NCBI GenBank assembly: GCA_027577595.1
Contig: JANBRJ010000141.1
Span: 1-28,793, forward strand
DNA length: 28,793 nt
From: Coemansia sp. RSA 487
Taxonomy: Eukaryota; Kickxellomycota; Kickxellomycetes; Kickxellales; Kickxellaceae
Reading direction: 5' to 3'
In this document: piece after piece, positions 26,457 to 28,793 of the stretch
How the letters are laid out: every line of letters starts with the position of its first letter
Position numbering within the stretch: position 1 is the stretch's first letter
Program-made: the position numbers and the translations under genes
Notes under the pieces: generated by a model
Database searches by the model: none
What the model saw: only the letters and a program-made list of their open reading frames with translations
Told to the model about the DNA's origin: nothing

Positions 26457-26537
26457 GAAGCTTCTTTCTTTTCTTGCATTTGTACATTATAAAATAACTT
26501 CCATACACTTTAGATAATTATTTGGCATAGCTCTAAT

Positions 26538-27686
26538 ACGCTGAGCTGCTTGTTCCACGCAGTGCTACGTTATATCCTGGCGGCCGTTGCAATGCTAGGG
26601 CTTTACACACTTTTCCATACAAACTATGACTGCGCGACATCACTCCTCGGCAGCGGCACACCAGAACTCTACGAGCGCAAGATAAGCTACCGCCCCAAAG
26701 ACCCAAAGCCAGTCAACGCATGTTTCACTATTCTGGCGCGCAACCACGACTGGCGCTCGCTGTGAGAATCCATGAAGCACATGGAGGACCGGTTCAACCA
26801 CCGCTACAACTACCCGTATGTGTTTCTTAACGACAAGCCGTTCAGCGAGGAGTTTATCAACATGACCCGGTCAATGACCAACGCCGAAGTGCACTACGGG
26901 CAAATTCCGCAAGAACACTGGTCGTACCCGGAGTGGATCGACCAGAAAAAGGCCAAGGAGGATTGCGAACGCATGGATAAGGATGGCGTAATGTATGGCG
27001 GCAGTGAAAGCTACCACCACATGTGCAGGTTCGAATCGGGGCTGTTTTTCAAGCACCCGCTGATGCAGCAGTTCGATTACTACTGGCGACTGGGGCCCAG
27101 AGCCCAGTACTTGTGCGACATCAGCCATGACCCGTTCCTGTACATGAAGGAGCGCAAGATCCGCTACGGCTAGACAACCGGCATCCACGAGCTGGCAAAC
27201 ACTATTCCGACTCTCTGGGGCTCTGTCAAGAAATTTATCAAGCAGCATCCCGAGACTATCCCCGACTACAACTCGCTCTGGTGAGTGTCGCGCGACAACG
27301 GTACTTCATACAACGTGTGCCACTTTTGGTAGAACTTTGAGATCGCCGATCTCTCGTTCTATCGTAGCAAAGAGTACCAGATGTTCTTTGACCATTTGGA
27401 CCGCGAGGGTGGCTTCTTTTACGAGCGCTGGGGCGATGCGCCCGTGAACTCGATAGCCACCGCCCTTTTCTTGCAGAAGGAGGAGGTCCACTGGTTCAAC
27501 GACATTGGGTATTTCCATCCTGGGTGGCAGCACTGTCCGAGTGGCGACGCTTGGCTGCGCAACAGATGCACATGCGATTCAGAAGACAGAGACAGGACCA
27601 TCACCAATGCTGGCTGGGGCAAGTGCTTCCACTCCTGGGAGCTGTTACCAGACAGGCCGCCGATATTCCGCAAAGCACGCACCTGA
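26538..27686 (+). pseudogene. KRE2/KTR-type alpha-1,2-mannosyltransferase (GT15), four in-frame stops
   Basis: Family members are Golgi type II membrane enzymes that extend O- and N-linked mannans with GDP-mannose. A hydrophobic anchor (VLRYILAAVAMLGLYTLF) is followed by NACFTILARN, MEDRFNHRYNYPYVFLND, GGSESYHHMCRFESGLFF, GTSYNVCHFW, NFEIADLSFYRS, FYERWGDAPVNS and IGYFHPGWQHCPSGD. These are all diagnostic GT15 blocks in the expected order, ending with the Cys-rich RCTCDSED. All lie in one frame without an indel, but stops fall at 26763 (TGA), 27171 (TAG), 27282 (TGA) and 27330 (TAG). The start is also uncertain: an ACG at 26538 stands where an ATG would give a normal short cytosolic tail, and the next ATG is 26592. 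The long conserved frame with only substitutions suggests recent inactivation. Confidence 0.88.
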
Positions 27687-27757
27687 ATCGTTTATTTGTT
27701 TATTATCGATAGTTGAATACATACTCTTACCAGCCACACTATAGGGATGACATCTAA

Positions 27758-27887
27758 AGGGCTGCCAAGGACCTCCGATTGCCACTAGCTAGTGGCAACC
27801 AAAGCCCTGTACCTGGCATTAATTTCTGCCCGGAACGGTTCCGGATAAGTTAGAGTGCTATAGCACCCAGGGAAAATATGGTTAATG
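27758..27887 (-). ncRNA. candidate Fanzor guide-RNA scaffold / element right end (hairpin-rich)
   Basis: The region directly 3' of the Fanzor stop codon contains three inverted repeats. A perfect 20-bp palindrome TTGCCACTAGCTAGTGGCAA (27779-27798) is enclosed by an outer 6-bp stem (27758-27763 with 27803-27808). CCGGAAC/GTTCCGG with a one-base centre lies at 27830-27844, and a perfect 12-bp palindrome GTGCTATAGCAC at 27855-27866. TnpB and Fanzor elements encode their omega/fRNA at the 3' end of the ORF and in the flanking DNA up to the element's right end. Position and structure fit, but transcription and the exact boundary are inferred. Confidence 0.35.
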
Positions 27888-28793
27888 TTAAGACTGCTGC
27901 TGCGATGTCACTGAACGGGGCTTCTTACTGGGCTGCATAGAGCCACTGGCAGACCTCTTGGTGCCGCTCACGGGGTTCTTGGTCTTCTTTGCTGGCGGAA
28001 GAGTGGCACCACGCCTAAAACGCTCGGGCCTCTTGTGTGCTTGGCGCAGACTATGGAGGATATGCCTGAAATTCAATACAGCAAGATCTCTGTTCTAAAA
28101 CCGAGCAGCAGGCTCTTTCCCGAGGTGGTTAGCAGGCTTCATGTTATTTGCCACATACTCCACACATTTTTTGTTTTGACACATTAGGAGTCCGTGGCAA
28201 GTAACATACTCACGTCTATTCTCTTTTGGGTAGAGCCTTGGGTTTGGAACCAGCTCTTCAGGATGCACAACCCTGTCTTCGCAACAACCAGGGCAGAAAG
28301 TCGAGGTGCGGAATTCGTCCAACAGGTACACTTTGAACCCATGCTTTCGCAGCATACTACGCATGCCTACACCCCGGATGGGCTCATGGTACTTGCACAT
28401 GGCAGCAGACCAGTTTCCAAGAACCAGCACAGGATCAAGACCAAACTGTTCACGGATAAGGTTGGCAAGGGTATGGTCTGCCCTTTGGCTGTTAAGGTAG
28501 GCTGCCAGACGCAACTGCTGATGAAGCAGTTTCTTGTTCGTTGTGCTGTTTGTCTGTGTGCAGGAATAGAACTTGTTCAGAAGGGGCCACACCTCAGCCT
28601 GGACCTCAATGAACTTCTTGAACTCATCAGGAGCAACAGTGGTGTATGAAACCTTAGCCAGACGCTGCTCTGCCTCAATGATGGTATTGTCAGGGTACAT
28701 CTTCTTGGCTGCTTCAAGGATCTTGCGGAACTTGGTAGAGCGAGTCAGCTTGGCCTTGTGATTGCGCGTAAACCGGAATAGCCATGGATTCCC
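27888..28793 (-). pseudogene. Fanzor (eukaryotic TnpB-like RNA-guided nuclease), C-terminal part, one in-frame amber
   Basis: Read from the window edge (5' end and RuvC-I lie outside) to a TAA at 27888-27890. Visible in order: a basic helical region; VLVLGNWSAAMCKYHEPIRG (Gly where TnpB has the RuvC-II Glu); YLLDEFRTS about 34 residues later, whose Glu (codon at 28314-28316) fits the displaced catalytic Glu described for Fanzors; a zinc-finger pair CPGC (28284-28295) and CHGLLMCQNKKC (to 28164); then NRDLAVLNFRHILHSL, the RuvC-III block with its Asp; RPERFRRG; and a Lys/Arg-rich tail with likely nuclear localisation signals (PAKKTKNP, PSKKPRS). A TAG at 28095-28097 stands just before NRD, where relatives have Trp, and the frame is the same on both sides. 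Fanzors are carried by mobile elements; they cut DNA using an RNA guide encoded at the element's end. Confidence 0.82.

Follow-up and report, generated by a model that had tools for sequence, protein, structure and literature searches.

The window and its genes

The window, meaning the whole 28,793-nt stretch that was analyzed, comes from a contig of the fungus Coemansia sp. RSA 487 (JANBRJ010000141.1). By Pfam, ordinary genes occupy positions 1750 to 24337: PALP with CBS, RRM, a PRK-type kinase, a CDC24-type RhoGEF with PB1, a proteasome subunit, an ABC transporter, a phosducin-like protein, SOR/SNZ, a ubiquitin hydrolase and GAPDH. These matches agree with the fungal housekeeping neighborhood proposed in an earlier sequence-only reading. 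They are followed by a mannosyltransferase frame, which is probably a decaying paralogue adjoining the Fanzor copy. The contig ends within a Fanzor gene on the minus strand. The features of this part of the window are as follows.

26514-27686, plus strand: mannosyltransferase frame (Glyco_transf_15) interrupted by four in-frame stops; coding similarity continues across the stops
27748-27762, minus strand: host flank directly past the element; presumed place of the guide
27763, minus strand: right end of the element, the last base common to subfamily A copies
27763-27890, minus strand: candidate omega-RNA scaffold, a conserved 128-nt 3' segment that includes the original stop codon
27812-27818 with 27763-27769, minus strand: closing stem in the predicted fold of the window copy
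27853-27868, 27829-27845 and 27773-27804, minus strand: stems in the same predicted fold
27888-28094, minus strand: remnant past the TAG, with the NRD motif, a basic NLS-like tail and the original stop codon (TAA, 27888-27890)
28095-28097, minus strand: in-frame TAG before the RuvC-III NRD motif
28098-28793, minus strand: C-terminal part of a Fanzor1 ORF, 232 codons, containing the zinc finger and the RuvC-II region; the N-terminus lies beyond the contig end
28164-28295, minus strand: four-Cys zinc-finger segment CPGC...CHGLLMCQNKKC
28302-28319, minus strand: DEFRTS motif
28314-28316, minus strand: alternative RuvC-II Glu codon in DEFRTS, with DEYKTS as its counterpart in the aligned Spizellomyces punctatus Fanzor
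28407-28424, minus strand: VLGNWS motif

Identity of the contig-end frame

Fanzors are eukaryotic RNA-guided nucleases. A phmmer search against PDB chains identified window positions 27891-28793 (minus strand) as the C-terminal part of a Fanzor1 protein. The best match was the Fanzor of Parasitella parasitica (PpFz1, 6.6e-34) and the second was that of Spizellomyces punctatus (SpuFz1, 6.5e-16), while the third match reached only 0.29. At the sequence level the similarity to Fanzors is far above chance. The Fanzor identity put forward in the sequence-only reading was borne out, and the Fanzor-specific best match it had named as support was obtained. Its glycine at the earlier RuvC-II position (VLGNWS) and its relocated glutamate (DEFRTS) both align to PpFz1 and SpuFz1, and the four-Cys zinc finger is present in the frame. 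A C4 zinc finger followed by RD is the Fanzor1 motif given in PMC3627910; both parts are present in the window DNA, with RD lying behind the TAG. The metal ligands reported for SpuFz1 are D383, E541 and D606 (PMC10432273), and DPG together with the alternative glutamate are given as Fanzor signatures in PMC10711439. Against Pfam the window fragment matched Cas12f1-like_TNB alone and below threshold (12.7 bits, cut-off 26.3). Two long ORFs searched against Pfam gave one unrelated sub-threshold match and nothing else.

A Fanzor family in the genome

Searching the 17.8-Mb genome with the window fragment gave 84 tblastn matches (E ≤ 0.001, self included). Once matches within 1.5 kb on one strand had been joined, these came to approximately 72 Fanzor-like loci on 54 contigs; the counts are lower bounds, yet diverged pieces of a single locus may have been counted twice. 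Subfamily A comprised ten long matches with 86-91% identity to the window, plus shorter pieces at 74-77%. Of the remaining loci one had 58% identity, a large group (subfamily B) had approximately 46-50%, another group had approximately 43%, and others were more distant. Fanzor matches came within a few bases of the ends of contigs C119, C141 (the window's contig), C38, C4 and C140, and the Fanzor repeats probably broke the assembly there.

Six of the ten matches at 86-91% sit in open frames of 763-816 codons, 88-91% identical to the window over the overlap, and in these six full-length copies the RuvC-I aspartate is present as DPGRRD. Six close relatives have, as read from their DNA, long open frames with a full D-E-D RuvC site. 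DP[G/N]R-x-D was found in 16 of the 17 long ORFs examined in the fetched loci, the exception being L017, which reads DPGRRG and keeps the DPG aspartate while the later one is lost. The EF glutamate was present in all 17, with the variants EEFHTS (L010), DEFRSS (L015), GEFRTS (L055) and KEFNTS (L056). NRD was present in 15; L056 reads NCD and L055 has none, its reading diverging before NRD.

The median dN/dS was 0.24 among six intact subfamily A copies (15 pairs) and 0.30 among five subfamily B copies (10 pairs), in an analysis restricted to copies with long open frames and to columns common to all (752 and 732, respectively), a selection that favors low values. The values indicate that the open frames of the family are under purifying selection.

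The right end of the element

A DNA search of the genome with the 133-nt 3' end gave 21 matching places. Twenty have in common the whole stretch of approximately 128 nt that begins at the original stop position and ends in ...TTGGCA. The remaining one, L044, shares it from about position 25 onward and has an unrelated 5' part. The final A lies at the same place in 19 of the 21 and is absent in L021 and L022. Twenty flanks were compared with the fetched loci and most were without a partner. Four of the 21 right ends (L010, L017, L019 and L024) run straight into the start of a repeat that all four have in common, and L020 is close to a copy of it. This CT-rich repeat was found at two further places, L058 (C69:642-887) and L027 (C57:66362-66599), where it starts after TATA and is preceded by no subfamily A sequence. 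It may represent a target, or else a piece of some longer element. With 21 dispersed copies of one right end, the Fanzor1 in the window is, on this pattern, part of a transposable element.

In the window 76 bases separate the right end at 27763 from the stop of the mannosyltransferase frame. A query made of the flank and the mannosyltransferase gene had seven other matches and yielded no insertion-free site for the window copy; similarity stopped inside the coding part in all seven. Two of the 21 right ends, those on C140 and C141, have mannosyltransferase-like sequence nearby, oriented alike in both cases (L024 4628-5090; window 26871-27763), and the sequence directly past the right end differs between them.

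The 3' segment as a candidate omega-RNA scaffold

The segment between the original stop codon and the right end was aligned for 20 of the 21 right ends, L044 being left out for its unrelated 5' part, and had a mean column identity of 88%. Over the same 15 pairs of intact subfamily A copies its distance was 0.065-0.127 per site compared to a dS of 0.176-0.392. It was less diverged than synonymous sites in 15 of 15 pairs, and its conservation extends over the whole ~128 nt. In the closest copies (L010, L011, L013 and L015) the 5' leader had a distance of 0.085-0.123 compared to 0.065-0.118 for the 3' segment, where pairs with L010 cover 66-125 columns and take its open-frame start, its ATG having been missed by the search pattern. 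The leader being about as conserved in these four copies, low divergence among them is not special to the 3' end. Compared with L009 the leader was far more diverged (0.26-0.41).

The segment folded better than the mean of shuffled sequences in all seven subfamily A copies that were folded (z-scores -2.45 to -4.88). Two subfamily B copies scored -2.42 and -2.98 and the distant copy L057 scored -1.60. The RNAalifold consensus contained three stems. A closing stem made with the last bases of the element was added in six of seven single-copy folds and was absent in L011; all five of its pairs (UGCCA/UGGCA) are possible in 12 of the 20 aligned copies. Compensatory changes in the segment did not exceed those of shuffles, and a search of the window against Rfam at gathering scores found nothing.

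The measured omega-RNA of SpuFz1 consists of a 75-nt conserved segment and a variable flank of 14-15 nt (PMC10432273). By analogy with this layout the 128-nt segment most likely encodes an omega-RNA scaffold, and the guide would come from the host DNA next to it. The segment might instead act purely as a transposon end that the transposase recognizes in the DNA, and be no guide-RNA scaffold. The bases at its end, CATTGGC, are similar to the inner portion of a Tc1-like left terminal repeat (GCCAATG or GCCGATG), which would suit a terminus, as would the lack of covariation, the retention of the segment in copies that have lost most of the ORF, and the 5' leader of the closest copies being about equally conserved. 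A terminus alone accounts poorly for a conservation that starts at the stop codon, extends over all ~128 nt and is higher than at synonymous sites in every pair, or for the folding of the segment compared to shuffles. In addition the terminal repeat of SpuFz1 itself belongs to the omega-RNA according to PMC10432273, so that DNA terminus and RNA scaffold can both hold. We regard a terminus without a scaffold as fairly unlikely and retain the scaffold as the preferred reading.

Linkage to Tc1/mariner-type DNA

A Tc1-type transposase fragment was found upstream of the Fanzor ORF in L009 (HTH_Tnp_Tc3_2, 6e-10, over the cut-off, in residues of 1559-2053; DDE_3, 0.04, below the cut-off); the corresponding left part of the window copy is cut by the contig end. 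Five loci (L019, L023, L025, L026 and L028) begin with a Tc1-like left terminal repeat and finish with a subfamily A right end, and L025, L026 and L028 are internal-deletion derivatives. L020 has both the repeat and the right end, with a Tc1-type 3' end between them. TA precedes the left repeat in six of six loci examined for it, and no regular TA was seen after the right ends. No target-site duplication was recognized by eye. Because other subfamily A copies have different starting points, the family has no fixed left end. Some subfamily A copies are, from these junctions, joined to Tc1/mariner-type DNA, and the linkage probably helped to spread Fanzor copies.

A more specific reading is that the omega-RNA end is the sole fixed terminus of subfamily A, the module of nuclease and RNA having been joined repeatedly to different Tc1-type left ends, and that the last stem of the scaffold derives from a worn Tc1 terminal repeat (CATTGGC). 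The end of the transposon and the end of the guide-RNA scaffold would then be the same bases, and each insertion would write a new guide. We consider this proposal unlikely.

The arrangement in subfamily B (L049-L055) is unlike that in A: a very conserved stretch follows the stop codon and lies approximately 250 nt before a conserved 3' terminus. In L049 the 3' terminus also recurs, inverted, toward the 5' side. The sequences fetched for six other B copies do not reach the 5' end, and terminal inverted repeats are therefore shown for L049 only.

State of the window copy

The minus-strand frame is open from 28793 to 28098, stops at the TAG and continues to the TAA. The TAG lies upstream of the RuvC-III aspartate, and as a result neither this residue nor the basic tail is translated in the window copy. 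The NRD aspartate and the Lys/Arg-rich, NLS-like tail of the sequence-only reading are therefore present in the DNA and missing from the protein. RuvC-I is absent from the sequence of the window copy, as the gene runs off the end of the contig. A sense codon occupies the TAG position in nine other subfamily A copies, namely six of 19 rows compared together with L009, L013 and L014; among the 19 rows one is the window and 12 were missed by the search pattern. The window copy is classed from its sequence as a pseudogene that can make no active protein, and despite the broken ORF it keeps an RNA-like 3' end. It does not stand as a working gene or as a single whole gene, as first proposed; it is a truncated, decayed member of a large transposable family.

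The TAG could be a sequencing error or could be read through, leaving a working Fanzor gene. The remaining frame is open and is 88-91% identical to copies with long open frames, as would be expected of such a gene. Decay is common in the family, with stop codons in 29 of the 84 tblastn match rows and frequent deletions, and the adjoining mannosyltransferase frame itself has four internal stops. The open housekeeping frames in the window argue against a changed genetic code. A working gene is judged quite improbable, and the pseudogene reading is kept.

Homologues and structure model of an intact relative

The ORF of the intact copy L014 has 789 codons, 745 from the first Met. Coemansia sp. RSA 1813 has a hypothetical protein, P0001, that matches this ORF from its first Met onward with 100% identity. 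The homologue search scored the 7997 candidates sharing most words and found 12 homologues, eight of them named Coemansia, one Martensiomyces and three without a name. PF26935 is the domain pre-computed for most of the 12. P0001 matched PpFz1 at 1.8e-93 in two aligned stretches and SpuFz1 at 5.8e-40, and its DPGRRD, DEFRTS and WNRD align to the RuvC motifs of both. An origin as bacterial TnpB through contamination or recent transfer, suggested by the weak match of the window fragment to Cas12f1-like_TNB, a domain common to TnpB, can be dismissed almost entirely, as that match, at 12.7 bits, falls short of the 26.3-bit cut-off, the matches to Fanzor1 structures are much stronger, all nine named homologues are Coemansia or Martensiomyces, and the same contig carries eukaryotic genes such as CDC24-type and Glyco_transf_15.

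The fold prediction proposed in the earlier reading was carried out on P0001. The AlphaFold model, built with 12 sequences, had a pLDDT of 52 and a pTM of 0.34. All seven Foldseek matches at E ≤ 0.001 were Fanzor chains (TM-scores 0.31-0.45). The model is weak, and the predicted structure lends weak support to the Fanzor identity.

Interpretation

Taken together, the window likely holds, in Coemansia, a broken, contig-truncated copy of a subfamily A Fanzor1 element whose 3' end would serve as scaffold, whose guide would come from the flank, and whose spread was probably aided by Tc1. Intact relatives are predicted from their sequence to encode a nuclease of approximately 745 amino acids with a D-E-D RuvC site. 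The segment between the stop codon and the right end most likely encodes the guide RNA scaffold. By analogy with SpuFz1, DNA immediately beyond the right end would supply the guide, which would direct the nuclease to cleave matching DNA. Joining to Tc1/mariner-type DNA probably helped some copies to spread.

By itself the window copy represents ordinary decay. The family as a whole is a natural set: one small fungal genome contains several Fanzor subfamilies with open frames under purifying selection, copies depleted of the ORF in which the RNA-like end persists, and links to Tc1. This makes the Coemansia set well suited to working out how element ends, guides and transposases pair up. A search of a literature library found no paper on Fanzor in Coemansia, and for related taxa there was none among the matches listed.

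Comparison with known Fanzors

PpFz1 (PDB 9cf0-9cf3; PMC11423790) is the closest solved relative and aligns to P0001 over nearly its full length. Both carry DPGRRDLL, DEFRTS and WNRD. PpFz1 is approximately 96 residues longer between the aligned stretches (chain 990 to 1086 compared to residue 528 of P0001), and these extra residues probably correspond to the RuvC insertion reported in PMC11423790.

The Coemansia family has equivalents of the three SpuFz1 metal ligands (PDB 8gkh; PMC10432273). According to that paper SpuFz1, like the Coemansia family, is present as many full and ORF-less copies in one genome, and like subfamily A it has a conserved segment between the stop codon and the right end. 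SpuFz1 has 30-nt inverted repeats at both ends, whereas the subfamily A copies that were examined have a fixed end on the right side only. The omega-RNA was measured for SpuFz1 and is proposed by analogy for the Coemansia family.

Fanzor1 beside a mariner-type transposase is seen both in Bao and Jurka 2013 (PMC3627910) and in Coemansia. The MCi-2 family of Mucor in that paper has one 3' region and several 5' regions, as does subfamily A. TA and 11-12 bp duplications accompany elements described there, in contrast to the Coemansia copies inspected by eye, and the MCi-2 copies are 99% identical while the Coemansia copies are more diverged. PMC3627910 has already described Fanzor1 within mariner elements as well as a family that combines a single 3' region with several 5' regions. 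What is added here is the Fanzor family of Coemansia itself, its selection signature and its fixed right end.
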